DNA of 64,000 nucleotides from Rhizoclosmatium globosum (Eukaryota > Chytridiomycota > Chytridiomycetes > Chytridiales > Chytriomycetaceae). The stretch is taken from assembly GCA_002104985.1 (NCBI GenBank), contig MCGO01000040.1:1-64000 (forward strand), given 5' to 3'. The position numbers and the translations under genes are program-made. The notes beneath the pieces are model-generated. The model was not told where the DNA came from, did not search any database, and saw only the letters and a list, made by a program, of their open reading frames with translations. Shown piece by piece: positions 38,521-64,000 of the stretch (position 1 is its first letter; every line of letters begins with the position of its first letter).

Positions 38521-39759
<1,239 letters not shown>

Positions 39760-44206: not shown

Positions 44207-45778
44207 CTAAACACTAGCCGGCAACTCTCTCCCCCCCAAACACAAATCAATCAACCAAAGCCCCTTCACAAAGTCCGCCTTCCCAACAACCCCACGCACA
44301 ACCCCTTTTCCCATAACCAAATCCCAGACCCTTCCCAACGTCCGATTATCAAGGCGACTCCTCAACCAGATCGTGCGCACCTGTTTCGGGGTGAGGGTGA
44401 GTTCGTCAACGGGTCCAGGGGCGCCGGGGTTCAAGAGTGCGGCAAAGGAGTCGAAGGCTTGGGCGTAGAGGAGGATGTGTTGTGGGGAGGGTGTGAGGGG
44501 TGTGGTTGTGCCGGTAGCTTGGGCAGTGGAGGTGATGGTCTTAGGGGTGAGTGTTGGGGTTATAGATGCTTTTGATGGAGGTGGAGGTGGAGCCTTTGCG
44601 CGGGCGTAGGAAAGGGGGAGTTGCTGGGTTTGAGGTACTGTTTGTGTGGGTGTGGATGAAGAGGGGAGGGAAGAAGGGCCGAGACCAGGAATATTCGCTA
44701 ATTTAGCACTGAGAGATGTTGTTGGTGGAGGAGGTGGAGGAGTTCGTTTGTTTGTTGAAGAGGAAACTGGGTTAATGGCATTTGTTGCAGATGTAACTGG
44801 AGTTGAGGCAACGGGCTTCAAAGAAACTTGGTTTACCCAAGGAGCTTGCTTTGGCTCGGGTGATGGCTCAGAGCGAATAGTCGATTGTTGACTAGCTTTC
44901 AATTCGGATGGTTTAAGGGGAATAAAGGGTTTTTCTGCAACAGTGGGTGTTTCGACAAATTTGACATAGTTCCCTTAACGTGCGATTTAACGTGATACTA
45001 CAAAGCGAAGGAATATTACCTGGAAAGAGACCCAGTTTTGTTGTGTTTTCAATGCGACCTACGAACCAGTCGTCGCCTTCTTCCGGAGCAGCTTTCACTA
45101 ATAAATTAATGCAATTAGTATGAAATGCGTAGAATTAAGCAAGACATACCATCGACAAGAGTGTCTCCCTTCTTGAAGGTCAATTCCGAGTCAATATCCC
45201 CCACACAGTCAAACAGGGCCACAGCTGTGAGTCCCGCAGACACGGCGTTTCCCTGAGACAGTTTTCTCACGATTGGAGACTTATTCAGCTGTTGAAAGCG
45301 GTCCTGCACAGTCTCCTTCGCCTTGTCCACGAGGGGAATCGCCTTTTCCTTGACTGACTGAGCAGTTGATTTGAATGCAGCCGAGTAGGCCGCGAGTGGC
45401 GAATGTGTCTTTGCAGCGAGTTTTGGTGGATCTGAGTAGTTTAGTTTAGTTTAGTTTGATAAATAATGTTCTGGTTCAACAACAAACCATCGTCGCTTTC
45501 TTCGGCGTCGCTTTCGATTGCAGCAACAAACTTGACATAGTTTCCTGTTAAACGAGAGCGACTTAGACGGACACGGCCTAGGAGATACAGACTAGACAAG
45601 GTATCCACGCACCAGGAAAGAGCCCTTCAGTCCCGGCCTTCTCAAGGCGGCCTGTGAACCACTCGGGTCCATCAGAGGGCGATGGCTTCACATTCACAAT
45701 CACATCGCCCTTCTTGAAACTGAGCTCCTTCGCATCATCAGCTACACAGTCGAATTGTGCTATGGCTCGCTTCTTCAT
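44207..45778 (-). CDS. Endocytic-type adaptor with two SH3 domains and an EH-like domain
   Basis: Multi-exon cytosolic scaffold. SH3-1 is encoded at the start (AIAQFDCVADDAKELSF, KKGDVIV, EWFTGRL, GLFPGNYVKF). A linker with VDKAKETVQDRF follows, then SH3-2 (AVALFDCVGDIDSELTF, DDWFVGRI, LGLFPGNYVKF). Next comes a Pro/Ser/Thr-rich region with poly-Pro tracts (RTPPPPPPTTS, KAPPPPPSK) that could bind SH3 domains. A C-terminal EH-like module ends the protein: a helix before TLTPKQVRTIWLRSRLD, then RTLGRVWDLV and ADFVKGLWLIDLCLGGRELP, matching the second EF-hand and the closing G..LP of EH domains. Introns at about 45550-45607, 45430-45490, 45100-45150 and 44970-45020 sit in or next to SH3 codons. 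Role in actin-linked endocytosis is inferred. Confidence 0.75.
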
Positions 45779-45815
45779 TTGGAGTGAATTAAATAAATAA
45801 ATAAAAAGGAGGACT

Positions 45816-46460
45816 CTATTCCTTTTTCACCTTCTTCTTTCCTCCTGCAAATCTGCTTCTGCTAGAGTCATCACGATTAACAAGAAACCGAACGTATCCC
45901 CCAACGGCACGAACACTTTCTCCAATTCCTACAAGTCCAACAGGTATCAAAATCCCTGCAAATACACTGAAATGAAACACTTTCCAGCTGAGCTCAGCCA
46001 CCCTCGAATCTTCAATCTGTCGTGCCAGTATTCCAAAACAACGCGTCATTGCAACAGTTGAAAAGCATGTCAATACACCCATACACAAGTTCGTTATTCC
46101 GACATATAAAAGGCGCTTTGGCGGTGATATACTGGTGGTCTTCCTTTCCCGTCCTTCATCGGCTTCCTTGGAGTCATGGCACCTTGAGTCCTCCAGCTCT
46201 TTCTTTTCCAGCATATTCCGCCTCCCAGCAAGCTCCAACTCGACTTTCCTCACTTCCAACTCAACTTTACTCTGTTCAAGTAAATATTTGGCCTCCAATG
46301 CCCGGGCTTCTGTCTGTGCTAACCGTGTAGATTGTTCCAAGGCATGTTTCGCAACTTCTGCCTCCATCTTTTTAGCTTTCCATTGCATCGCCGCATCTGA
46401 AACTGTTGCGTCACTTGCTATTGAAACGCACGACACCGTTGATGAGCGCGGGGTCGTCAT
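45816..46460 (-). CDS. Single-exon coiled-coil protein with two TM helices
   Basis: An uninterrupted 214-residue frame starting MTTPRSSTVSC. Residues about 25-100 form a long charged coiled coil (many Ala, Glu, Lys, Leu heptads). A short basic linker follows, then two hydrophobic helices (around LCMGVLTCFSTVAMTRCFG and VFAGILIPVGLVGIGESV) and a Lys/Arg-rich tail ending KKVKKE. This end suggests a hairpin membrane anchor with cytosolic N-terminus and a di-lysine-like C-terminus. No family recognised. Confidence 0.65.
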   Translation of the reverse strand: MTTPRSSTVSCVSIASDATVSDAAMQWKAKKMEAEVAKHALEQSTRLAQTEARALEAKYLLEQSKVELEVRKVELELAGRRNMLEKKELEDSRCHDSKEADEGRERKTTSISPPKRLLYVGITNLCMGVLTCFSTVAMTRCFGILARQIEDSRVAELSWKVFHFSVFAGILIPVGLVGIGESVRAVGGYVRFLVNRDDSSRSRFAGGKKKVKKE

Positions 46461-46622
46461 GACAGCTTTCAGAGAAGAGTATCCAAAAATCTTCCAGAAA
46501 TATTGTTTGATAATGAGATTCTATTCTAAATATAGGATATAAACGAAAAGAAGTAATAGAACATAGTCAACTGTAAGAGGTCCATAGCATCATAAAAAGA
46601 ATGAGGAATTGGTTGCACCCAA

Positions 46623-49600
46623 TTAGAAGAAAATAACAAAAGGTAGAAGCAAGGAAAGACTCTGGTGAAGTCGGTTTCCGATGGATACAAGATCTGACGG
46701 ACCCGCTACAATAGTTGCAATCGAGTCTCCCCAGTTATCGACGCCAGCTGTCTGCAATGCAGAATCCTGCGATTACGAGAATAAACAACCCATTCACATA
46801 TTTATAACAAAAAACTCACTGAATCCCCAAGAATCGGCTCAGCTTTACACGTAGTTTCATAATATCCACTCCCAGGAATCTTGGTAGGATCCAACACCTG
46901 AGTCTTCAAGTGTCCCGTAATATCTCCCGAACAATCACTACTTCCTATAAGCGCAGCATCACACACGGCGTACTTCATGTGAACAGTGACAGGGTGACAG
47001 TCCGGGAACGTAAACGAAATCCTTCCCAAATCATCTTCCAAACCACGTTTGATAAATACTTGATAATTCGTTCCCGCAACCGTGTTTCCACGGATATCAG
47101 TGATGGAGAAGTCGAATGCCAAGATTGTCGCGTTTTCAGTTTTGGGGAATGTGAAAGAGATGGTTTGATTTGTCGCGGTTGCGATCGGCGCTGGTTGGGT
47201 GAATTTTTTGCAAAGGTCGGAAAACAACGATACAAACAATGTTGTTTGGTTTGCTACGCTAATGCCGCAATTTGTTGTCGAGCTTGTACAGTTTGAGTAA
47301 GAAGAGAGAATAGCCGGAGTCACAGCTTGACATGTAGAAGCCAAAGTATCAGGGTTTGCATTATTCTTGAACGCTGAGAAATTTGGAATCTGCGAAATAA
47401 ACAATTTTAGCGAATATAATACAGAATTTAAACTTCTTGAATCAGAAAACATACCAAATTCTGACATGAGTCAACACAAGGAGGAACAACGTTCAACGCA
47501 ATCACAGTAGCATTTTGAACGAACTGTTTATCACTAATCGCAGGTACTTTTCCGTCCAAAACTTTTGGCTCATTGGGTGCTGCAGTCGCAATAGGCACCA
47601 CCGGAGGAGGAGGAAGAATAATCGGTGCAACACCATTGACAACAGTCCCACTAACATCAGATCCATCTCTCTTCCCCGTCCCACTAGTAATCGCAATATT
47701 AAAACGTGCAATCGCCTGCCGTTCAGAGTTGACAGCAACCAACAAATTCGCACCGTTCGCCGTTAACTGCATCGCAACCCATTCACTAGTGATGGCAGTT
47801 TCAAGGGGAATAAAGACTTCAACTGAATTGTCTGAATAAGTCGTGATAACACCTTTCCGAGAGCTGGTTGTATCCACGTTCGAGACTTTGTATCCGTCAA
47901 GAGAGAAGACGAAGATCACTCCGTTCATGCCGGATGCAGTGGCGGATGAAAGTGGGGAAGCTGAGAAAGACACAGGAATACCTGGCTGAAGTACGAGTGC
48001 CTTTTGAACCATTGAATCGGAAAGGGTGTTTGCATCTATTTGGTAGGACAGCCCTTTGATTCGCGAACTAAATCTTGCTGCAATTCCACGCGATAGATCC
48101 ACTGTTACAGAGGGTAGAGGACTGTATACTGGGACTGATCCAGATAAAGCAGAACTGGCAAACTCGTCTGAGCTAATTTCACGATACGTGCAACCTCGGC
48201 GATCTGGGTTTAAATTGTATCCTGTTCTACAAGATGAAAGTAAACAGACACCGCTTGCGCATTCAACAGTTCCGAGAGGATAAGGCGAGCAGCTAGTGCT
48301 AGAAACACAGGTTCCTCCAATTGCGACATTCACTTGTTCCTACGAAGAGTATAAGGTGGAGTGTAAGAAAATAATTGGACTTGTGTTTAACTCGATTCAT
48401 ACCTTGCAATTTGGAGGGGAACCACCATATCCGGGCAAACAGAAACATTTATCTTTGGAATCTGATCCGAGAGGGCTTGATGCTCCTACGCCACAAGATA
48501 ATGGTTGCTGGTTTGTGTACGTCGGACAGTAACTACCCTCAGGACATGTAGTGGGTGCTGTGGACCCCGCAGGACAGTAGGTTCCTTTCGAACATGGAAC
48601 ACAACCAAGACCCTATGTAAGCCGAAATTAACTTAAGCTAAATTCGCGAAATATGCATTACTCCTTCTGCATAGTATCCTGCAAAGTAGAGACCAGCTTG
48701 ACAGATGCAATCCTGGAGGGAATTTGGACCGTTGGTGACTATCGTTCCAGTCGGGCAACAGGTAGATCCCTAAGATCCAAGATTTAAGTCCTATTGTTTT
48801 GCAAATAAATTTAAATTTACTCACTGGACATACAGATGTGAACGAATTGGAAAGGCTTGAAACATATTTCAAGGCCTGTGTATCAAAATATGACGATTTT
48901 TCCAAAGAAGTACCTGTCACTGTTGTCGTAATCATGACGCTATATCTCAATTAGTGTTCGCTGCTCGAACAAGTAGGAACATTACATTTGTGGACATCCA
49001 GCAAAGTTGACATAACCAATACAGTTCGTTCCATCAGCAAGTACAGGTAAATTAAAGAATCCACACGACGACTGAACATTCTGACCCTTGACTCGAGATC
49101 CACGATTAAACCCAATCCATGCGTCGTTGTCAAACGCGACTGGTCTATTCCAAATGTCAGGCAATTTCAGATTGGTATTTGAATCTCCTGCCAAATCTTG
49201 GGAATCGCATGCTGAATAGTCTTTAAAACGGAGCGTTGGGTTCCCTTGATACAGTTGTAACTGAATTTGAAATAGACATGAATTGAAAACCACCAACACG
49301 TGAACCGAACAGACATACCCCATTCATGTCAAATGGTACATAGCTCAGGGTTGCCGTGTCAAAGTGGAACTTCTTTTCTTCAGGAGAAGATGTAACAGCA
49401 GTTGAAATTTCAATACTGAATGACCTAGTGAGTAAATATCAATGAAATTGAAAATAACGAACAAACGAGCACATCCAGTGGTATCGAGGGTAAAAGTGCA
49501 CTCCTTTGAGTTGCTGTCGTAAATCGCCTTCACTGTGAACGTCCCACAAGAAACTTTAACATTTTGATTTGCTTTTTTGCTGTCTGATTTGAATGTGAAC

Positions 49601-52600
49601 CTTGTCGTTGAGGTTGCTGAGTCTTTGGACAAGATCTCAGGAAGTAGTAAGGGGCCCGTCGATAATCCCCCATTTTTGTCGCAATCAGAGAAGTCTCCAA
49701 TAGTAGGATTCACAATACATTGCGTGGAATCAGAGCTGACACTAAAGCCAGCGGAACAAGACTGAAAGAGACACACATTGTTCCCACTGCCGCCTTTTTT
49801 GCATACAGTGGCCCCATTCAAGCCTGGGCGACAACTTGTGTTGGATACGCAAGGTTGGTTGATTTCAACGTTCGTATTTTCCTGATATCACACATTCAAC
49901 TTAAATTTGAGCTATTTTACCACTTACGTTACACTGTGTGCCGTCTGCCGTCAAGGAGTATCCGTTGACACAAGTTTTAAACAAGCACGCATTATTTCCT
50001 GACGCGTCTTTTCCACAAAATGTTTTGTGGCCAAGAGGATTTGCAGCGCAACTGGTGTCCGATGCACAAGGTTGGCCGATGGGGACGTTTGTGTTTTCCT
50101 GAGTTGGTACGTGTTAGAAACAAATACAAAAAAGACTTCATTGATAAGCTTACGGTGCATTGGCTGGAATCAGTGCTGAGAGTGTAGCCAACGGAGCAAG
50201 ACTGGAAGAGACAGACATTGCTTCCGCTGCCGCCTTTTTTACATACGGTAGCTCCATTCGAGCCTGGGCGACAGCTTGTATTGGATGCACACGGTTGATT
50301 GATTCCGACGTTTGTGTTTTCCTGGTGTTAAATATACAGTCAATGAACGACAGTCGGCGATGTATGTTAGACCTTACATTACACTGTGTACCATCTGATT
50401 TTAAAGAATAACCACTAGCACAGGATTTAAACAAACACGCGTTGTTTCCTGACGCGTCTTTTCCACAAAACGTTGTGTGGCCAAGAGGGTTTGCAGCACA
50501 ACTGGTATCCGAGGCACAGGCTTGGCCGATGGGGACGTTTGTGTTTTCCTGAGTTGGCGAGCATTAGGAAATAAAACAACGAAGACAATATGGATCGGCT
50601 TACAGTGCATTGTGTGGAATCAGAGCTGAGAGCGTAGCCAACGGAACAAGACTGGAAGAGGCAGACATTGCTCCCGCTGCCGCCTTTTTTACATACGGTT
50701 GCTCCATTCAAGCCTGGGCTACAGCTTGTATTGGATGCACACGGTTGATTGATTGCAACGTTTGTATTTTCCTGGTGTTATCCAATCAATTAAAAACTGT
50801 CGACGATGTATGTTATGTTGCTAGAAACTTACATTACACTGCGTTCCATCTGCTTTTAACGAGTAACCACTAGCACAGGATTTAAACAAACACGCGTTAT
50901 TTCCTGACGCGTCTTTTCCACAAAACGTTGTGTGGCCAAGAGGGTTTGCAGCACAACTGGTATCTGAGGCACAGGCTTGGCCGATGGGGACGTTTGTGTT
51001 TTCCTGAGATGGCGAGCATTAGAAAACAACGAAGACTGTATGGATCGGCTTACAGTGCATTGAGTGGAATCAGAGCTAATAGTGTAGCCAACGAAACAAG
51101 ACTGGAAGAGGCAGACATTGTTCCCACTGGCGCCTTTTTTACATATGGTAGCTCCATTTAAGTCTGAACGACAGCTTGTGTTGGATAAACATGGTTGGTT
51201 GATTACAACGTTTGTATTTTCCTGTTCTCGCAATTATTATAAGATAGAGTGATTGATAAACTTACGTTACACTGTGTTCCATCCGCGTTCAAAGAGTACC
51301 CATAAGCACAGCTTTGAAATAGACACACGTTCTTACTGCAAACCGTAGTGTGGCCAAGGGGACTGGATGCACAACTGGTGTCAAAGGCGCATGGTTGGCC
51401 AATAACAACATTTGTATTTTCCTGCATAGTTTTATTATGAAGTTTAAGAGTGGCTTTTTTGAGTTTGAGTCGTACCTTGCAATCGGATGGGGAACCACTG
51501 TATCCCGGCTTACAAAAACATTTGTCTTTTGAATCAGATCCAAGTGGGCTTGTTGCTCCCACGCCACAAGGTAAAGCCTTTTGGTTTGTGTATGTGGGAC
51601 AATAACTACCTTCAGGACATACAGTGGGGGATGTTGCCCCTTGCGGACAGTAAGTTCCTTTTGAACATGGGACACAACCAAGACCCTGTGTAAGGCGAAA
51701 TTAGCTTTGACTGGATTTTTCGAAAGATATATTACTCCTTCCGCATAGTATCCTGCAAAGTAGAGACCAGCTTGACAAGTGCAATCCAGGAGGGAATTTG
51801 GGCCGTTGGTGACTACTGTTCCAGTCGGGCAACATGTGGCTCCCTGAGTTGGGTGATCAGTGAACAATTTTGATCTGGAAAATCTTTTTACTTACTGGAC
51901 AGACTGCAGTGAACGAATTGGGTAAACTTGTTACAGTTGTCAAAGCCATTATATCAAATAAAGACGTCTTTTCCAAAGAAGTACCAGCAACTGTTGTCGT
52001 TATTGTGACGCTATTTCTCTATCAGTATACGCTTCTACACCAAGAAGAAACGTTACATCTGTGGACAACCAGCAAAGTTGACATAACCAATACAGCTCGT
52101 TCCATCAGCAAGGACAGGTAAGTCAAAGAATCCGCATGATGACTGGACATTCTGACCCTTGACTCGAGTTCCGGTACTGAATCCAATCCATGCATCGTTA
52201 TCAAATGCGACATCTCTCTTCAAAATATCGGGCAGGTTCAATATCGTACTTGAGTCTCCTATTGAATCTTGCGAATCACACATAGAGTAATTTCCAAAAC
52301 GTAGAGTTGAGTTTCCTTGATAAAATGGTGCAAGCTTTTTTAAGAGAGATGCATTAGAAGCTGTCAACTAAGTGAAATAGACATACCCCAGTCATATCGA
52401 ATGGTACGTAGTTCAATGATGTTGTGTCAAAGTGGAACTTTTTTTCTTCAGACGAAGCTGTAATTACAGTAGAAATCTCAATGCTATGTCCAAACCCATA
52501 AGAACCTTTAAAATAATAGAAAGATATAACGTACAAGCGAGGACACCCAGTTGCGTCGAGGGAAAAAAAGCAGTTCCTGGAGCTACTATCATACGCCGCC

Positions 52601-53114
52601 TTAGCCGCGAAAGTTCCACAAGAAGCTTTAACAGTTTGATTGCTCTTTCTAGTGCCTGAATTGAACACAAATGTTGTCATTGATGTTGCTGGGTCTTTGG
52701 ACATGATCTCAGGGAGCGCCAAGGTACTGGCTGATGGAGGATCTAAGTTATCACAACTTGTGAAATCTCCGATGGTAGCAGGTGTTGGGTCTCGTTTCAC
52801 AGCAGTTTGCTGTTTTACTTTTCAGTGAAGTTGACAGAGCATCCAATATCGAACACACATACCAAACATTGCGTCCCATCCCCCGAAACAACGTATCCAG
52901 GCTTACTGCATGCAACCAATCGACAAACGTTAGTTCCAGTTGATGATTCAATTGGTGCGACACAATCCACAGGGCCCAGTATTGACTGAACGCAATCGGC
53001 TTTCGTCACACATCTTTCATTCAGGTCTGCAATCGCCAGACCGTTTTGACTTGGGCCCTGAAGGATTCGCGTGGCCGTGACATAGAGGGGAACGAGGAGT
53101 AGGGCAACTAGCAT
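46623..53114 (-). CDS. Large cysteine-rich, probably GPI-anchored surface protein
   Basis: One gene of more than twenty exons. The ATG at 53114 gives a signal peptide (MLVALLLVPLYVTATR). After an N-terminal Cys-rich segment come two tandem copies of a multi-domain module. Each has an IGDF.SCD domain, a beta-rich domain ending CGFF.LPVLADGT.CIGYV, a CCPTG exon, and a C-P-x-G-x-YCP exon (GTYCPQG, GSYCPTYTN) resembling GCC2/GCC3 or TNFR-like repeats. Between them lie eight tandem six-Cys exons (49763-51421). The 3' part is a non-repeated domain (ISSDEFASS..., DLSRGIAARF), then CQAVTP...TSSTTNCG. The last exon ends in a hydrophobic tail, SLSLLLPFVIFF, and the stop is at 46623-46625, as in GPI-anchored proteins. 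Introns are around 50-70 bp. An adhesin or coat role is inference. Confidence 0.8.
49763..51421 (-). repeat. Array of eight tandem duplicated six-cysteine exons (A/B alternating)
   Basis: Exons, 5' to 3': A' 51421-51266 (156 nt), B 51221-51054, A 51003-50833, B 50771-50604, A 50548-50378, B 50321-50154, A 50098-49928, and B from 49881, which is fused to the following IGDF exon. A exons are 171 nt, B exons 168 nt, all phase 0 on both sides and all starting GAAAATAC or GAAAACAC (ENTNV). A type: IG.PCASDTSC, NPLGH.T, six Cys. B type: IN.PC.SNTSC, NGATVCKKGGSG, six Cys. The A-B pair repeats every 450-455 bp including both introns. Confidence 0.92.
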
Positions 53115-53551
53115 TTTTCGTTTGCCAACACGGTTCGAGATCCCGGTTTAAGATGAGGGTTTGTGGACGAAAAATTTCTTCTCACTCTTACTGATATTAC
53201 CAATTTAGAAATGTTGTCAGGTTATTCGTTTTCATAAGAACTCATCCAACGCACAAGCCTGCTTAACATAGGGAGAATTGTCACATTCATCTGCATTTAT
53301 CACGAACCAAAGCCCTATTAAACAATGAAGATAACTTTGTACTTTACACGTAATGTAATGGAAGTTGGCGACCTGAACATTGCGAATCGTCACCATTCTC
53401 CCGCTATATTATAAAGGAAAGATATGTATGTTTCATCAAGGGATCACTATTTGTTGAATAACTTGAATATTGGACATAACGATAGAAACAAAACCATATC
53501 CTCCAGAACGTCCCTCCCTATTAAACCACAATGCACAAAAAAACCCATAAA
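53115..53551. other. Intergenic region between surface-protein gene and deacetylase gene
   Basis: Holds the promoter of the cysteine-rich gene (reading leftward) and the 3' flank of the deacetylase gene. A short TATA-like ATATTATAAAGG occurs near 53405. No gene seen. Confidence 0.5.
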
Positions 53552-55969
53552 TCACGCCTTGAACACCTCCTCTCCAGCAATATACACTCTCGCAACCCTA
53601 AACACACTCTCATCTCCTTCCTCAAACCCATCCAACACAACAAAGTCAGCATCCGCACCTTCACTCAAACTACCCTTCTTTCCATACACGCCAATACACT
53701 TTGCCGGTGCAATCGTCGCAGCATTCACAGCCTCCGCCAACGAGCATCCAGCAAACTTGACGAGATTCGAGATACAAAACGGCATCGTCGCAACAGACCC
53801 GGCAAGCGTGTCTGTTCCGTCAATCACGACTTCCATGGGCCCCTTTCTGCGGACTTTCATGCTTCCAAGCATGAATTCGTCGCCGTCGAGGCCGGCGCCT
53901 GCCATGGCGTCTGTGACGAGGACGGCGCCGTCTGGGAAGGCGTTGTAGGCGACGCGGATGGATGCGGCGGAGGCGTGGATGCCGTCGGCGATGAGACCGT
54001 ACCATGGTTTCTTTGTCCCGTGGGGGAGCTCGTTGAAGCCGAGGACACCCATTGGCCCTGGGTCGCGGTGGTGGAAGGGGTGCATTGCGTTGAAGAGGTG
54101 GGTGAGCATTGTTGCGCCGACTTCGAGGGCTTTTTCGGCGTCTTGGTAGGATGCTTCGGTGTGGCCCATTGAGATGACGAGGTTGTCACCCCATCGGGAT
54201 TTGATTTCTTGGATTGCAGAGAGGGCTCCTTCGCGTTCTGGGGCAAGCGTGAGAATTTTGATGACACCATTGGCTTTTGCGGCTTCGCTTGTGGGGGTGT
54301 CAATTGTCGGGCCGTAGCATTCGAGAATGTCTTGGAAACCGTTAGTTGGAGCGCGAATGTAGTCAACGTTGTGGGCTCCCTTCTTGGATGGGGCAAGGAA
54401 AGGGCCTTCGACGTGGGCACCTTTATTTTGGAGTTAAAATCAGGTGGGAGATATGAGGACACGAACCTAGAATTTCGGCTTGCTTTGGCTTGGCGCCTCG
54501 GTAGTCAGCAATCTTTGGCAGAACATCGTGGTAAGTTTCGGGAAGAGAGGTAACGACTGTTGGCAAGAAAGAAGTGACACCGTATTGTGGCAATCCCTTG
54601 GCAACAGCCGTCAATCCTTCCTCAAGAGTAACAGTATCCGCGAAATCGTGGCCACTGAATTATTTAAAATATTAGTACTTGTGAGGGTTGGAGGTTTGTA
54701 TGAGATTTCTTGGTGACATGACAACTTGACTCACAGTTACAACCATATGTTCACCCCTGCCACCTCTCCTTCCTTTCTTTCCTACTTAACTATTCGTACA
54801 TATGTATGTACCCTTATTCATGATTGACGCCACATCATTCTTCTTATCTTTTATCGTTAAGCACTCAACTCCAATGCTTTCCCTCACATTTCATATCACC
54901 ACTTGCTCTGCATTAATACAATGTTCGATGTGTATTCTACTATCTAACTTGATCGCCTTCATCGAAGGTTGTTTATAGCGCTCACATATCGTTTCATTTG
55001 TTCGCTGCGCTCACGCTTTCCTTTTGTTGCTCACTTCATTCCCACTTCCTTCAGCTTTGTTCGCTACACTCACTAATCGCTTTCGCTCACTAATCGGTCT
55101 CAGAGTTCATGACTCACTCGCGTAAATAGATGCAATACATACAAGTATCCATTGATTTGCAAATCAATGAAACCAGGAACAATAAGAGGTCTCTGCTTAT
55201 CAGGGAAAGCATCATCACCAAAATCAATCACGACATCAGCCTTGACACCGGCAAAGAAGAGAGACTTTGAATCGACAAACTTTCCATTCTGGATCCAGAG
55301 AGTCTCGTCCTTGACGATCTTGCCGTCGCGGAGGACATCGCATCGAATAAGTTGGATCACCTTTTGCGAGTTTGGCTTTGGGGAGCCAGGAAGGGAGGTA
55401 GGAGGCGTGTCTAGTTGGTTAAGGCCTGGCTTGCTTGAGAAGATGCGGTTTGTAAAGAGTCTGTGAGGGAGTGCGAGTTGTTTGTTTATTTGTTAGTTGG
55501 TGGGTGGGTGGGTACTCCCAGGAAGGGAATGCATTCGATTGAACCAAAGAGGGGTGGTACATACCGATCTTTAACAGCAGAGTCTTGAGACGGGGTCTGT
55601 GTGAAAGAAAGGGAAAGCAAGGGAAAGAAAGGGAGGCAGAGTGAGTCATTTAAGGGGCAACACTAATAACCAACGACTTACTCGGTACATCTTCTGGCCG
55701 CCAAGCTCCTTCTCCTTTTCCTTTTCCTTGTCCTTGTCCTCGTCCAGCGCCGCCTTCTTCTCGAGCCAGGCCACGAGCGACGGCGATCGCGACGGCGGAA
55801 GACGCTTGTCCTTCGATCCAGATCGCAGGCCGAGGCCGTCAAGCTCGCTCACCGGAACCGCTGATCGGTCCTCGGTCGCGTATCCGAGGAAGGCGGCGAG
55901 GCGGGACGAGGCCGTCGAATGCCGTTGTTGTTGTTGTTGTTGCGGTGGTGGTTGCGGTGGTTGTGACAT
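53552..55969 (-). CDS. NAG2: N-acetylglucosamine-6-phosphate deacetylase with N-terminal extension
   Basis: Converts GlcNAc-6-P to glucosamine-6-P in amino-sugar (chitin) catabolism; amidohydrolase fold. Catalytic-domain landmarks: VPGFIDLQINGYFGHDF (split by a 488 bp intron, 54655-55142), AHVEGPFLA, a MGHTEASY segment, THLFNAMHPFHHRDPG, LIADGIHA, LVTDAMAGAG and a closing GADADFVVLD. The domain proper starts around IQLIRCDVLRDG, where no ATG exists. Three in-phase exons upstream (through LFTNRIFSSKPG and TPSQDSAVKDR) lead to the ATG at 55969, adding about 145 residues. These hold a Pro-Gln start with poly-Gln (CAA/TTG run near 55922-55942) and an alternating Lys-Glu-Asp segment. Donors and acceptors are canonical and phases agree. 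It is divergent from the Ser-rich gene, 164 bp away. Confidence 0.85.
54655..55142 (-). other. Unusually long intron with repeated CGCTCAC words
   Basis: The donor GTATGT at 55142-55137 and acceptor TTCAG at 54655 join INGYF|GHDF, so the excision is well supported. At 488 bp it is several times longer than most introns in the window. In 54975-55100 the words CGCTCAC and ACTCACT, often preceded by TTCG, recur about six times. No ORF or known element. Confidence 0.7.
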
Positions 55970-56133
55970 TGGAAACACGTTTTTGTAATGCTGATAATAA
56001 CCAAGCACAAGGGGAAAGCCGTCAATTTGGAAATGACCAATGGGATCAGAGGACACGCCAGAACAATGGGCAAAGCATATATCTCTTACAAATACTTCTC
56101 TTACTTTCTTTCATCAAACTATATCTAGAAAAC

Positions 56134-59100
56134 ATGATCCCGCGTATCAATCTCATTTTACTGGGCTTCCCTTCCATTCCTCCCTCTTCAAACTTTGATC
56201 CTGCAACAGCCAGCAGCCCGTCTTCCTCACAAGAGAACCTCCTCTTTTCAAAATATTCTCAGCCTTCCAATCAATCAACAACAACTTCAACGACAAGTGC
56301 TGGTGCTGCAAGACGTGTTCTGATGGCTCTCGACTACAACGCTCAAACTGACAAGAAGGCTCCCATCCCAACAATATACGATCTCTTGATGCGCGCGGGA
56401 AAGAAATATCTTCAGAACGATCCTACTGTCTCAGAGTGTCTCAAACGATTCAGGAATCACTACAAGAGGATATCTTCAGCGGAAAAATCAAGTTCGTTTG
56501 TTAAACCCTCTTTGACAGTTTATTCGAACCCTCCAGACTTTGCTCTTGTCGGATTGGAGAGTAGTCTGGAAGTATTGCGAGATGGTGATACTCTCTTGGT
56601 GGTTTGGTCCATGGTTGGTGAGTTTCTGAGGTAAACGAGCGAAGTGCAATACATATCATTTTGGAGGGTCTTATGGCGAGCGACAATTTGCGAAGCGAAG
56701 AGGTTGTTTTGTAGAGGTCAGGAGATGTGAGAGTATCATGTCGCCCATTCTGAAAATGTCAAAACACACTTACCACTGATTCTGAAATAGATGATACGCC
56801 ACTGCAAAAACAATTCCTCCCTTCAACTCAAAAATCAGTACCATCTGCATACTCACACGAGCAAGTGGACGTTTTTGGTGTCATTGCAGCAAGTGGTGGA
56901 ATCCATAACCAAGGGAAACAAGGATGGAGCGGCCCAAACCTCCGAGTAGGCGAAACAGTACATACAGAACGCGTCGATCCAAAATTCAAGACCGAAGAAG
57001 AACCAGACGCCGAAAGCACTCGAATCAGCACAACTCAAAGTGAACCTCCCCCAACCAATGAATCATCTCAACCCCCCGAACCCTCCGAATACATCCCCTC
57101 AACAACAACAACATCCCGTGCAACAACCCCAAAACCTTCCAAACAAGCCCCGACAACCTCCAAAAAACCCTCGAAACCCTCCACCCCACGCACACCCACA
57201 TCCAAAAAACCACACCACCACCCACAATCCACAACCTCCCTCTCAACATCCATAAAATCAAACCCCTCCCCACCACAAACCTCCTTCTCATCCCTCCGAA
57301 TCGACGGCATAGGCCTCCTCAAAGGCGACACCACATACAGCGACACCGCATCCGAAAGCAGTTCCTCGCTCTCCTCTGACACAGACTCTCCTGCCCCCGC
57401 CCCCGCTGCGAAATCCACATCTGAAAGCGTAAAGTCGTTCACGGAGAGCATGAAAGAGGCGTCGACGCATTTGGTGGGGATGTTGGATGCTTTGAGTGAT
57501 GGAATTGAGGTTGTGCAGAAAGCGACGACGACGGGTGGTGGTGGTGGGAGTCAGAGTTCTGGGGTGAGGGATCGGTCTGTTAGTTCGGAGTTTACGGTGC
57601 ATACTGCCGATGGGTTTAAGGGGTCTGTAGGGACGGTTGGTCGGGTGTCGTATGGGGGGTCGGAGAAAGCGAGTGAATCGGTTGTGAGTTCGCCTGTTGG
57701 GCAGGGTGGTAGCTCGTATGGTTCGGGAAGGAAATCGAGTTCGGTTACGGAGTCGAAACATCCTTCCACTGCGTCCTATGGTTCAAGTTCTCAACAGCAA
57801 CAACATAATGAAGGCATTATCGGAAAGATTGCTTCCTTGGCTCACTCAATTGCAGGCTCACCCGAACATACTTCATCATCTGAACCAAGCCATCACCCAT
57901 CGCAACAAACCAAACAATCAAACACAGATATACATCAATCTGTAGCCTCAAAATCATCAGAAACAGGCTCTCATACTGCAGGCAGTTTCATCGAAAGCAT
58001 AACAAGCAAAGCATCCTCCCTCTACTCAAAATCCGAATCATTCCACTCTGGCCGTTCAGAACAGCCGCACACGGATCCACAACACGTATCAGAATCGTTG
58101 CGTGACGTGAAAACAAAGTCTTCCGTGCATTCTGTCGCATCAAAGGCGTCTGATGCTGGTTCACACCAGAGCGGTGGTGGGTTCATGGACAAAATGGTTA
58201 GCTTCTCGGAATCCGTTGTTTCGAAAGTCAGCGATTCAGTGCATTCCGGTTTGTACCCATTGAATTAACGCTAGTGGCCACTAAAACTCTTCAGGAACAC
58301 ATCATGGATCTACGAGATCCATTGAGTCAAATAACTATTCCCAGGCAGCGTTGAATGCAACAAGGGAATCGACTAGCACGATTCGAGGACTGGAAAATTT
58401 CGTGAAGGAAGTGAGTCCAACTTTGGCAGCGATTTCAAATGTTCTACAAGGCCCTGAGTCGCATGCAAAGATTCCATCGAAGCAAGAGCATGGAGCAACT
58501 TCTAGTGGGACGTTATCTGTCCCACGGGACTCTGCAACCACTAACCGGGAATCAACAAGTACAATTCGAGGGCTTGAAACGTTTGTGGAAGAAACGAGTC
58601 CGGCTGTTGCGGTTATTTCTAGAGAGCTTCAGCCTTTGTCAAAGAATTCAGATTCGACAAATACGCTAAAGTCTGTGGACAAAATGCGATCCAAGCCGGA
58701 TTTGGCGAACCTTCCATTTCCAAATATCCTCAAATCAAGTGGCAAGCTTTCGGATCCCGTGAAACAGTCCACGGATAAAATCTCTGATCCGCCAAAGCCT
58801 CATACCTCTCAAAACTTCCAACAGCCGCCTGGTCCTCCACTAAACTGGCACCCACCACCACCACCTGAATCTCAACCCCGAGATTCCTCTCACTCAACAG
58901 CTCAAACCTTCCAACAACCACCCGGCCCTCCACCAAACTGGCATCCCCCACCACAAACCTCTCAGCCTCGAGACTCGTCCCACTCCACAGTCAACACAGA
59001 GAAATCACCAACAAAGTCAACAACAAGTCTCGCAGAAAAGCTCTCCCACTTTGCAGAATCCACATCCTCAAAACTTTCAGCCCTCTCCCAAACCTTCACA

Positions 59101-59913
59101 TCCCCCACCTCCAAAAAATCCACATCCTCACTCAACACCACCACAGATCCCAAAACCTCCTCCCCATCATCATCCCCATCGTCTCCAGAAAAACAAAACC
59201 ACACAAGCAACAACAGCCTCGCCCACAAATTCGCCGAATTCAAAGAATCCCTGACACACTCGAAACAAAGCCTGACAACAACCGCCACTACTGCATCACA
59301 CCAACCGAGTCCCACCCCGTCCACGCATTCACCGGGAACAGACGACGTGAACCTCTTCCGTCCTGAATCGCAAGACTTCGCGTATTCTCCTGAGGTCGTA
59401 ACGGCGTCGTACCAGAACATGTTCAAGACCGAGGGGGGTATCTCGACGGATGAGTTGAGTCAGATATCGAAGGGGACTGGTGCGTCTGTGAAGGAAAGTA
59501 GTGCAGGGGGTGGGGAAGGTGATGAGACGCCGAAAGCGAAGCGGAAGGGGAGTGGGGATGTTCATTCAAGTAGACAGTCTGTGGGTAGCGTTGGAAAGAA
59601 GGAGGTGCACAGGTCTTCTAAATTGGAGTTGGCGGAGAAGAGGAGGTCTAGTGGGAATATTGTGAAGTCGGCGGAACGTTCGAGAGCGTCGTCGGTTTTA
59701 TCAACGTCTTCTTCGGTGACTGGTTCAACATATTCTGCAAGCAGGCGGTCGAGTAAGTCAACAGTGAAAGAGCCAAAGCTTCCTGAAAAATTTAAACCAA
59801 TTACGGTTCCTAATCCCGCGCATGGAAGTTCCGGAAAGTTGAAGCGTCCTGGGAAAGGGAGAGCTAATGACGATTCTCAGTCAGATACATCGTCAGTTTC
59901 AAATAATCGTTAA
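56134..59913 (+). CDS. 1186-residue Ser/Thr/Pro-rich protein, function unknown
   Basis: Three exons, 56134-56617, 56791-58248 and 58295-59913, with consistent phases and no frame break. The N-terminal exon encodes a compact region (MALDYNAQTDKKAPIPTIYD, then SLEVLRDGDTLLVVWS) that looks folded, perhaps ubiquitin-like or doublecortin-like at its end. The rest is low complexity: Pro/Thr/Lys tracts, Ser-rich segments (YSDTASESSSSLSSDTDS), and recurring helical motifs with SVVSKVSDSVHS or SITSKASSLYSK. Exon 3 holds two internal two-copy repeats, RESTSTIRGLE.FV.E.SP and FQQPPGPP.NWHPPP. A basic C-terminus, PGKGRANDDS, ends it. No signal peptide or TM. Probably a disordered scaffold. Confidence 0.7.
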
Positions 59914-60025
59914 ATTAAGTATCACATAATAATATATGTTAAAGTTGCACTGTATATATTTTTAAGCGATTACAGAATAAGAAGAGATGGAAAAGGGTTT
60001 GTGACACAAATGAATTCTGTGAAAT

Positions 60026-61465
60026 TTACTGACGAGGCATAGTAGTGCCGTAATACTTTTTGTACTCTTCTGGGTTCTGTCTAAAGTACTCTGCCCACTC
60101 AGCCGAGTAATCTGCCTGCTGAGGCTGTAGCTGAGGTTGTAATTGCTGTGGTTGAACAAATCCGTAAGCCTGCTGTGGCTGATGCTGAGGATAAAACTGT
60201 TGCTGTGGGGATACAGGAACGACAGGGACATCCATCGCTTGTGCAGGCAAAAACCCAGCAGGAGCAGGAACATCCATAATCGGAGTAGAAGTGTCACGAC
60301 GTAAAGTTGGGTGACCAGCAGACCCGCTTCCACCTCCAAATCGGTTGATGATTTGCATTTGCTGGTCTTCACGTTGCTGGCGGGCGGTACGAGCTTTGAG
60401 CCATAATACAAAGGCAACGACAATTAAGAGGAACGTGGCGGCTGCAACACCGCCGAGAATGGGGCCAAGATTAGAGTCAGACGACGATGAGGTACCTAAT
60501 TAGTAAAAACAAATAGATGTTAGTCACCAATTATGTATGAGAATAAGGGGGCGTAAAGAAACAAGGTTATGATGCGCACTGCTTTGAATAGTTGTTCCCA
60601 ATGAGATCATAGCCAATCCACTCGTAACGGTGGATAAGAGAGTGGAAGTAGATGAGGTTCCTTCTGCGAAATAGGGATAGGGGAGGGAATGCAGCGTCTC
60701 AGGAGAAACGATAATAGAAAGAAACAATAGAAACGAAATGGCCACAAACCGGAGTTTCCGCTGCTTGTGGATGTAGTGACTGATGAAGTAGAGATTCCAC
60801 CACCCGAGATGGAAGAGGGGTTTGTGACAACACCCAGCGTGTCAGGACAAGGAGCAACGGTGTATGATGCAAAGTTGATCACTCCCGAATTGACAGCTAG
60901 GTCAGTTGATCCCAAGAGAGCTCCCATCGCAGGTAGGGAGATGGAAAGGGGTCCAGAACTGCTGGTACTTGGGAATGAGTCAATGATCTGCACAGCAACG
61001 GCACGGCCTCCACATTGTCCCTATGAATCAGGAGAGTGATGCGAGTTTGGTAAGTAAGGGGACAAGGTCCCACGCACGCATCGATTGAACCTTTCGGTGA
61101 CAAAGCACTTGCTCACCTTCGCACACGATACAATAGCACACATGTTGTTGCAGACATTTGGATTGGCTTTGTAGAAGTCCTGGGTCACAGCGGCAAAGTA
61201 GTTTCTGAGACAGATGCGATGTGAGTTCCTAGGGTTCCCAAGCCTGTTTCAGGTAACCCGCTACTCACTTGTCCGTTGCTACCATGTGACAGGCTCCATT
61301 CCCGTTGGCCGGCGAAGGGTCGGATGCCGTGCCCGTTCCAAAGTATTGGATCTTGACATTCGTGAAACTCTGAGAAGACATCGTTTCGTTTGTGTCTTTG
61401 ATGAAAGAAAAAAGGGGAAGGCAGGTGTTCTCTCTTTCTTTCATACAGTCCGCTTCAGAAGACAT
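60026..61465 (-). CDS. Double-psi beta-barrel (expansin/RlpA-like) surface protein with one TM
   Basis: The N-terminal domain has KIQYFGTGTASDPSPANGNG, an NYFAAVTQDFYKANPNVCNN segment, CGGRAVAVQIIDSFP and a closing INFASYTVAPCP. This is the pattern of DPBB domains in expansin-like, barwin and RlpA proteins (start Y-x-G, paired Cys, C-terminal V.V.D.CP.C region). A Ser/Thr/Gly stalk follows, then a 254 bp intron (60496-60749), a TM helix (GGVAAATFLLIVVAFVLWL) and a cytosolic Gln/Pro-rich tail with repeated QPQQ and a Tyr-rich end (AEWAEYFRQNPEEYKKYYG). The start is uncertain: ATGs at 61465 and 61381 are in frame, and neither gives a clear signal peptide. Cell-wall remodelling or binding is inferred. 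Confidence 0.55.
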
Positions 61466-61523
61466 TCACTAGTAACCACCCTTTATTAGGCTCATCAATA
61501 AATGCAATAACGAAATCAATGAT

Positions 61524-62443
61524 TTAAGCAAACAAGGCAGCAAGAATCAAGGAGAAAAGTCCAACAACAGTGCTAGAGGCGTCGCTAGCCTTTCCAGTCT
61601 GAGCTGCAGATCCTCCAGAAGCAGCGGTTGTAGAAGTTGCGGCGGTGGATCCTCCGTTGCTTCCTGGGACGTTAGGGTTCATGTCTGTAATAAAACTGTT
61701 AGTTTTTCAAAGTAACTTTGAGAATCAAGCAGATATCACATACAGGGCAATTCAACCTTGCAAATAATCTGGTTTTGAGTCAGATCGAATAATCTCAGCT
61801 GATTAACGACTCTGAATCTGAATGAATCGAAATGGGTGTTTGTGATTAATTGTTGAGTTTTAAAAGGAAACCGAGTCACTCACGAGTATGCTGCTCCAGG
61901 GGTTGTCGCCAACGAAAAAGTTTGGTCTCCTCCGTTACTTTGGCTAACAATGTCACTCACGAACGTAACGGCGTTTTGGTTCTCCTGAGGCTTGCCAGCA
62001 ACTTCTGCAACTACTCCTCCGTACCACTTGGATCCGTACGCATTCAAGAAGGTGAAGTTCTTGACTTGGAACTATGAGAATTTTAAATGGTTAGCAATGG
62101 TTGAATGATATCAAGAAGTTGGGTTGGATACGTTGCGTGTATGCGTCACATCCCCCCCAACCCCTTGTCAACATATTTAAACTCCGCAAAATGAGCTTCC
62201 CTTCCAGTATTCATTGATACTTACAGTACATCCATCAATAAACACAAAGGTGCCCGAGCAGTAGACAGGATTGGCGTTGTTAAGACTCTGGGATGTTGAT
62301 ACTTGGATCAATGGAGCCGTCGTCTTTCCTGGAACATAGGTGGATGGATAAACATCCTTTTGGCATAGATCAACTTGTGGGGCATCATCGGCTTTGGCAA
62401 CAGCCGCGAGGAAGGCAACGGCGGTAACGAGAAGACGGAGCAT
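61524..62443 (-). CDS. Small secreted GPI-anchored-type protein
   Basis: The ATG at 62443 gives a signal peptide (MLRLLVTAVAFLAAVAKA). The mature domain begins with CQKDVYPSTYVPGK, then YCSGTFVFIDGCT, and after an intron FQVKNFTFLNAYGSKWYGGVV and QNAVTFVSDI. The FxDGCTFxVxNFTF..WYG order is reminiscent of DM13-like or other electron-carrier beta-sandwich domains, but this is weak. Two further introns precede a Gly/Ser/Thr/Ala-rich stalk and a hydrophobic tail, VVGLFSLILAALFA, at the stop codon 61524-61526, the layout of a GPI-anchored wall protein. Confidence 0.65.
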
Positions 62444-63256
62444 TTTCTAATGTTCTTTTTTTGGACCGCCACCAAAGAGAAGACAAAGTACAAAAACTAG
62501 GTTGTAATTTTGTATGTTTCTAGCAAGAGAATTGATCAGAAAAATGTTGCAAATGGATCGTTGCCAGAGCTGATTGAGTTGATAGTTTACTACCCAAAGT
62601 GTGTACTTCAGCATATCCGTCGGACAATTCTACCCCTCTTTTCGACTTTTATTACGCAAGACACGCCGAGAATGCTATAGTCCCTGTCGGGTCTTTTTCG
62701 TTGGTTCGTTAAGGAGCTCTCCTTTTTTTTCTCCTTGCACAAAACTCTCTCCAAATCCCCTTCCATACCCGTTTCACCAAGCACTTCTGCCCTTGCTGAT
62801 GCGGCTATGATCTGTCTGCACTTCTCCTTGCACGTTTGATCAGATTTGGCTCAGCCTCATCCCTCTACCTCCCGTCCCATACAACATCAACACCCTCTTC
62901 TATACCATAGATCTCTAGACCCCGTGGAAGATTCTTTAAATGGCGAAGAGGAAAAGGAAAACAACCGTCTTACAATTTCCTTCTGTAAAGTTTCCTTCCC
63001 TTGCTAATCAATGCAAGATGGAAGGGAAAAAGGAAGGAGACATTTTTGAAACCGTAAATAAATTAACAATGTAAATAAAATACACAACTATCGACTGGAA
63101 TTATGAAGGGGGAGCGTTTCTTGTGGAAGGATGTGGACTCTATAGGACTTATGCAGAAGGTCCCTTATTGTTTATTGTGTTCTTCTGGAAGCGTGAAAGT
63201 GAAACCCAGCAACATCCAGGGGACAAATATGCTGACAATATTGCCGCTCTCAGAAA
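62444..63256. other. Intergenic region, no gene recognised
   Basis: Pyrimidine-rich stretches (around 62620-62870) and an A/G-rich stretch (62930-63040). A 72-codon frame from the ATG at 63103 overlaps the start of the next gene out of frame and is not convincing, but it may hold a first exon of the Crinkler-like gene. Confidence 0.5.
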
Positions 63257-64000
63257 ATGAACCAGAAGTTCTTTGTTCGGCACCAAATCAACGCTCCAGT
63301 AAAGATTACCACTCACTGTGACAGCAACAGAGTTGGAAGACAGTACCCACTTGAAGATGTGGCCGATATCATTGCAGCTTTTTTCCCTCGTGCATTACCC
63401 GTTGAACTTGGACGTTGTACACTCTATGAAGTGGTGAATGGGGTAGAAACGGCTTTGGAGCCCGATTTAGATCTTTCATCGCTAGCTACTGGACGCACAG
63501 CCAAGACGGCCCTCGTTATCAAGTCCCAGACTGATATGGAGGTCGAAGAAGCAGCATTTAACCCACCACGCATTGACACAAGACAACCGTTTCTGCAGCC
63601 CAAATCAAAAGAGATCAAATATGTTGGGGTTTTGTCTCTCGACCCTCATGCAGATGAAAGTTTGGCCAAGTTTATGGCGTTGGCAGTGCTTATGGAACAG
63701 GATCCTGCCATATTGGCCATCACAAATTGTATTCAAAAGTTGGAGCACAGCGATGAAATTCCATTTGTGTTCGTCGAGGGATCGTCAGGAACAGGAAAAA
63801 CACAAACCGCATTGACTGTTACCAGACTGTTATCGCAGACTGCACCTGTATACTATTTTTTGTATAAGCCACCCACGAAACCCGTCCAAGCGATATACCA
63901 GAACTTCAGATCAATCACAACGTTTTTCCGCAACTGTGTCAAACTGGACGGCGCCTTTTATGAAAACAATCTGTCCCCCAGTTGTAATTTCTTGTCCACC
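63257..64000 (+). CDS. Crinkler-like protein: ubiquitin-like header plus P-loop NTPase, cut by window edge
   Basis: The ATG at 63257 opens a frame without stop to the window end, 248 codons. Residues about 25-95 are a short header with YPLEDVADIIAAFFPR, CTLYEVVNGVETAL and LEPDLDLSSL. This leucine-patterned form is like the ubiquitin-like N-terminal domain of CRN (Crinkler) proteins. After a linker, FVFVEGSSGTGKTQTALTV (near 63770-63820) is a Walker A P-loop of the S-S-G-x-G-K-T-Q kind seen in the CRN NTPase domain. A stop at 63233-63235 in the same frame limits extension upstream unless another exon exists. CRNs occur in oomycetes, chytrids and other eukaryotes as multi-domain effectors, often ending in a nuclease-like domain, which would be outside this window. 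Confidence 0.55.
   Translation, partial: MNQKFFVRHQINAPVKITTHCDSNRVGRQYPLEDVADIIAAFFPRALPVELGRCTLYEVVNGVETALEPDLDLSSLATGRTAKTALVIKSQTDMEVEEAAFNPPRIDTRQPFLQPKSKEIKYVGVLSLDPHADESLAKFMALAVLMEQDPAILAITNCIQKLEHSDEIPFVFVEGSSGTGKTQTALTVTRLLSQTAPVYYFLYKPPTKPVQAIYQNFRSITTFFRNCVKLDGAFYENNLSPSCNFLST

Follow-up and report, generated by a model that had tools for sequence, protein, structure and literature searches.

Within the window analysed here, a 64,000-nucleotide stretch of the chytrid Rhizoclosmatium globosum (assembly GCA_002104985.1, contig MCGO01000040.1, positions 1 to 64,000), a minus-strand gene carries eight tandem six-cysteine modules of two alternating types. We posit, with a probability of roughly 0.62, that this array is the middle of a secreted, probably glycosylphosphatidylinositol (GPI)-anchored surface mosaic protein, which arose by duplication of phase-0 module exons and is now mostly conserved rather than used as a fast length switch. 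Direct observations carry this reading, namely the arrangement of exons in the gene model, the homology of the modules, their class 0-0 borders (phase 0 at both ends), the uneven ages of the repeat units in their A-B register, nonsynonymous divergence (dN) below synonymous divergence (dS), and a like module-per-exon design at sister loci. Mechanistically, the module exons would have been duplicated by unequal recombination through short phase-0 introns, the cysteines would pair in disulfide bonds, the mosaic protein would be displayed at the surface, and the array may act there as a spacer or as a binding stalk towards the substrate or neighbouring cells.

Structurally, the array reads B1 A1 B2 A2 B3 A3 B4 A4 in the direction of the gene, with modules of 168 nt denoted A and those of 171 nt denoted B (156 nt for B1), the reverse of the labels in an earlier sequence-only reading of this DNA, in which A was 171 nt and B 168 nt. 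Seven modules are separate minus-strand exons, all of class 0-0: B1 (51266-51421, 156 nt), A1 (51054-51221, 168 nt), B2 (50833-51003, 171 nt), A2 (50604-50771, 168 nt), B3 (50378-50548, 171 nt, 95.9% identical to B2), A3 (50154-50321, 168 nt) and B4 (49928-50098, 171 nt). The eighth, A4 (49714-49881), ends without a donor site and is fused to the next domain within a 419-nt exon (49463-49881). Eight tandem six-cysteine exons, of exactly 171 and 168 nt alternating four times, had been described from the letters alone; eight alternating modules are present and six exons have these lengths (three of each), but the first exon is shorter and the last module is fused, so that seven stand alone, and the array starts at 49714, not at 49763. 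The GT..AG introns of the array measure 44-61 nt and lie in phase 0 at 7/7 module borders, in keeping with the phase-0 borders and short introns reported before. Likewise, the proposed 450-455 bp period holds across most of the array (repeat detection gave a period of 450 with a score of 1934, and spacings are 440-455), but not for the shorter first B unit, spaced at 418. A search of the genome (57 Mb in 420 contigs) with the array DNA matched only the array itself.

Evolutionarily, comparison of the four A-B units (U1 to U4) upholds both their register and the idea that whole A-B units were duplicated. On a tree of modules, type A separates from the rest with support of 97/89, and one long-branched module of a sister gene falls beside type B, a topology consistent with an A-B pair having been duplicated repeatedly within the window gene. 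Neighbouring units had been called nearly identical, introns included; this is only partly so, with 94.8% identity in one tract of 248 aligned bases, which covers the last part of A1 and continues into B2, aligned with the corresponding stretch of A2 and B3, and 94.0% in one intron pair, but whole units are only 83.5% (U1/U2), 89.5% (U2/U3) and 80.5% (U3/U4, the last intron being absent and not counted) identical, and introns at equivalent positions range from 63.6 to 94.0%. Concatenated dS was 0.20 for U2/U3 (bootstrap 0.105-0.333) and 0.94 for U3/U4 (0.56-1.77), with dN of 0.03 and 0.07, respectively. Between same-type units dS spanned 0.18-0.97, with all pairs that include U4 at 0.70-0.97, and dN was below dS in 9/9 same-type pairs of equal length (B1 was excluded because its length differs), which indicates that selection keeps the modules.

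An apparent contingency repeat of this kind can be dated against haplotype divergence within the same assembly. A sister gene pair, comprising BCR33DRAFT_847025 and its upstream neighbour, carries tandem copies of the same six-cysteine module (15 and 6, respectively) on two contigs, C388 and C80, whose sister genes are taken as haplotypes on account of their collinearity (93.9% over 9.5 kb). Their modules differ by a dS of 0.149 (0.116-0.181; single modules 0.026-0.532), as calculated from 19 of the 21 module pairs, two having been omitted because the C80 copy is frame-shifted there. As a second reference, for local haplotype divergence, an exon of the neighbouring amidohydrolase gene (293 codons) gave a dS of 0.030 between contigs C335 and C305. 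By dS, the youngest duplication of a whole unit (U2/U3) cannot be shown to be younger than the first of these divergences and is clearly older than the second; the recent expansion that had been proposed is not supported. Taken together, the array looks older, and apparently more stable, than had been held.

These ages bear on the possibility that the gene encodes a contingency-type adhesin, in which unequal crossing-over would make strains differ in module number and hence in the length of the surface protein. The gene model does allow for it, with seven consecutive class 0-0 exons whose gain or loss would stay in frame, as had been pointed out; near-identical, recently expanded units, as expected of such an adhesin, were not found. 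The closest unit pair is no younger, within error, than the haplotypes, and the divergence of the U4 pairs is unlike that of homogenised contingency repeats. Moreover, both sister-locus contigs carry 6 + 15 modules (on C80 one module is represented by two rows owing to a frame shift), an equality of module counts that comes from the sister loci only. We thus regard switching of module number as an unlikely explanation, and a conserved mosaic protein as the better one.

Three observations nevertheless favour the contingency reading. The 94.8% tract suggests that units have exchanged sequence or that the region of the tract was duplicated later; the introns at A1-B2 and A2-B3 are as close to each other (94.0%) as those of the sister-locus haplotypes (91.6%, 675/737), so that in the middle of the array one part is either younger than the rest or has been exchanged; and contig C305 lacks the array, so that the locus may be structurally variable. 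This contig follows the window over 44944-48768 with 2 mismatches and resumes over 53315-64000 at 98% identity, leaving out 4,546 bp (48769-53314) that comprise the upstream region, exons 1-18 and the first base of exon 19, and hence leaving the window array with no second copy from which to count modules. The gap may be a deletion, and thus a null allele, or an assembly artefact; near-100% identity over 3.8 kb on one side of the junction against 98% on the other is odd, and both mismatches agree with the other copy of a repeated unit of the gene, described below as X-Y-GCC. The same features, with C305 holding only the 3' part of the gene, speak for a reading in which the array itself is partly a repeat mis-assembly, or the gene a decaying pseudogene. 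Given 1,779 open codons across 23 exons with GT..AG introns, and dN below dS between units, we consider mis-assembly or decay very improbable.

Symmetric exons also invite the idea that skipping yields isoforms with fewer modules. In the model, each of the seven stand-alone exons is an in-frame cassette; across the gene as a whole, symmetry is limited to 13/21 internal exons, so that the claim of symmetry for every exon applies to the stand-alone array exons. The array introns are short, and retention of any of them shifts the frame (7/7). In a survey of 23 fungi, skipped exons account for 3% of alternative-splicing events and intron retention for 61% (PMC3925392), a low share of skipping that makes it unlikely on general grounds, and exon skipping in fungi is described elsewhere as comparatively low (PMC6142364). 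Exon skipping as a source of length variation is thus given very little credence here.

The gene that holds the array (53114-46623, minus strand) was modelled by hand from splice signals and reading frame, and is predicted to comprise 23 exons encoding 1,779 amino acids without internal stops. All 22 introns are GT..AG and 38-65 nt long, 18 of them in phase 0 and 4 in phase 2. The predicted protein runs from a hydrophobic start through a module, an X-Y-GCC unit, the eight-module array, a second X-Y-GCC unit, a further module and a linker to a C-terminal domain and a GPI-like tail. Exon 1 (52863-53114) encodes the signal-peptide-like start and the first six-cysteine module, the latter recognised by eye in the translation. 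X-Y-GCC units, made up of two related domains, X and Y, and a cysteine-rich segment (GCC is a label that we assign presumptively, and no Pfam family matched the segment), flank the array on both sides. Unit 1 (51476-52809, exons 2-7) and unit 2 (48403-49713, its first domain being joined to A4 in the 419-nt exon) lie ~3.07 kb apart within 48403-52809 and share 74% amino-acid identity at a dS of 0.80. An 885-nt exon (47455-48339) adds another six-cysteine module (48187-48339) and the linker region, and is followed by the C-terminal domain (46820-47389), which is conserved and common to a gene family of the same genome, and by the last exon (46623-46766), ending in a 12-residue uncharged hydrophobic tail that resembles a GPI signal. 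The Y-GCC part gave 11 matches in the genome, none of them outside the window gene and its C305 copy; X was not part of the query, though one X was matched.

Functionally, the two ends of the protein point to the cell surface. Twelve-residue windows with a mean hydropathy >2.0 are confined to residues 1-3 and 1768 of the 1,779; the N-terminal mean is 2.43 across residues 2-14, a value of hydropathy only. Twelve uncharged C-terminal residues with a mean hydropathy of 1.8-3.1, again judged by hydropathy only, were found in 6/6 family C-termini inspected. Thus, a surface protein, as had been suggested, remains probable, and from its predicted sequence the protein is most likely displayed by a GPI anchor, with the array as a string of small cysteine-rich domains.

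The modules themselves resemble known families at a distance. EGF-like (cEGF, PF12662) matches fell below the curated cut-off (26.0 versus 26.6 bits for the whole protein, and 18.7 for module B2), as did CPL1-like ones (PF21671; best 25.8 versus 27.4 bits, for the module at 48187-48339), and both resemblances are weak and confined mainly to the C-terminal part of the module. Four residues separate cysteines four and five of the modules, whereas in EGF domains there is one. Predicted structures reached a predicted local distance difference test score (pLDDT) of 87.6 for one module, a good prediction, and 81.2 for the C-terminal domain. Searches of module sequences against solved structures returned just two chance-level rows (E 0.37 and 0.47), and fold comparison with solved structures gave no confident match for the module and only weak ones for the C-terminal domain; a missing structural match does not demonstrate a new fold.

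Tandem six-cysteine modules on a predicted surface protein could also form a sugar- or chitin-binding array, with module number setting avidity for the substrate of a chitin-degrading fungus. The species is described as chitinophilic (PMC12115818). The gene adjoining the window gene (53555-54433, minus strand) encodes an amidohydrolase family protein (Pfam Amidohydro_1). This argument rests on association, and a Pfam scan of the full protein to E 1 reported no carbohydrate-binding family, although weak matches are often lost to the filters of HMMER; nor did structural comparison give a confident lectin match. We rate chitin binding as improbable, if a little less so than a contingency adhesin, and return to the mosaic protein built from module exons, for which the sister genes offer a comparison.

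BCR33DRAFT_847025 and the window gene have the C-terminal domain and hydrophobic tail in common. In the sister pair, the modules are strongly diverged and without the A-B alternation of the window array, and there is no X-Y-GCC unit, the Y-GCC search having matched the window gene and its C305 copy only. On C388, 14 of 19 module borders have a GT..AG intron exactly at the border, and at the other five the modules abut without an intron. The state on C80 is equal at 17 clean borders, and the remaining two touch frame-shifted modules, with spacings of -1 and 8 nt that leave no room for an intron. The deposited sister protein joins modules at 14/14 borders of the longer gene, 10 of which are introns. 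Across the three genes, introns thus lie exactly at 21/26 borders between adjacent modules (7/7 in the window gene and 14/19 in the sister genes), a count that omits the modules at three further loci (L014, L032 and L038), and all seven stand-alone exons have equal phase on both sides. From these borders, the phase-0, one-module-per-exon arrangement is a trait of the family, not a peculiarity of the window array. Separately, two modules of the C80 sister copy (L012, 7603-8221) are out of frame when compared with C388, through indels that are either real or of the assembly.

The C-terminal domain matched 38 places in the genome, of which 24 reached E 1e-20 or better, with haplotype pairs and split exons counted among them. 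A module profile iterated on its own matches was run on 23 loci (L011-L014 and L020-L038), mostly 10 kb around C-terminal-domain matches; six of them contained modules, namely L012 and L013 (which hold the gene pair on its two contigs), L014, L032, L011 (contig C305) and L038. Another family member (L022, 6834-8834) bears repeats of ~12 residues, rich in D, T and N, ahead of its C-terminal part, and no six-cysteine module was found in it. Protein-database searches, each scoring ~8,000 candidates, matched only the Rhizoclosmatium globosum sister protein; sensitivity was low, since one search missed even this known protein, and absence elsewhere is thus not shown. Viral contigs scanned with the C-terminal domain yielded no relative.

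Symmetric module exons are known to undergo tandem duplication; what is less usual here is an extracellular module of class 0-0 in a fungus. Within the window gene, modules occur beside the hydrophobic start, between the X-Y-GCC units and before the C-terminal part, and they recur in the sister genes, all within what appears to be a single gene family. Exon shuffling is regarded in one review as confined to Metazoa, with domain types that are all of class 1-1 (PMC8001218). As in the metazoan proteins covered there, the window gene combines extracellular modules, symmetric exons and introns at domain borders; it differs in that its modules are class 0-0 and fungal (PMC8001218). Tentatively, and with more doubt than confidence, we suggest that in a fungus an extracellular cysteine-rich module gained mobility in the form of a class 0-0 exon, with recombination in phase-0 introns copying it and carrying it to other places in its own and other surface genes. 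This would have happened without any link to the class 1-1 system of Metazoa and would contradict a restriction of exon shuffling to that group. The modules may either be truly shuffled or merely duplicated inside one gene family. The one-module-one-exon, phase-0 design provides a counterpart in fungi against which the class 1-1 rule of Metazoa can be set.

Among fungal surface proteins, yeast Flo/Als-type adhesins, as characterised in a review, have a secretion signal, tandem repeats and a GPI signal (PMC6023273); the window protein resembles them in its tandem repeats and, judged by hydropathy only, in its putative signals, whereas its repeats are heterogeneous, cysteine-rich modules borne by separate exons. 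According to that review, adhesins have rarely been described outside Ascomycota (PMC6023273), and the repeat proteins of Glomeromycotina are of a different, disordered kind (PMC8786786). No account of the window gene or its array was found in the literature searched, which comprised top-ranked papers and R. globosum papers searched by term. For a saprotrophic model chytrid, the window gene indicates a concrete family of surface proteins that can be tested.

In the window, no RNA family reached its gathering score. The amidohydrolase family protein encoded next to the window gene may resemble N-acetylglucosamine-6-phosphate deacetylase. Tandem repeats of 228 bp lie on the minus strand at about 38521-39754, with one unit apparently split by an intron, and are presumably polyubiquitin, a name that we assign from the translation. 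Minisatellite-like tandem repeats with 13- and 31-bp based units occupy positions 555-894 and 1497-1635.
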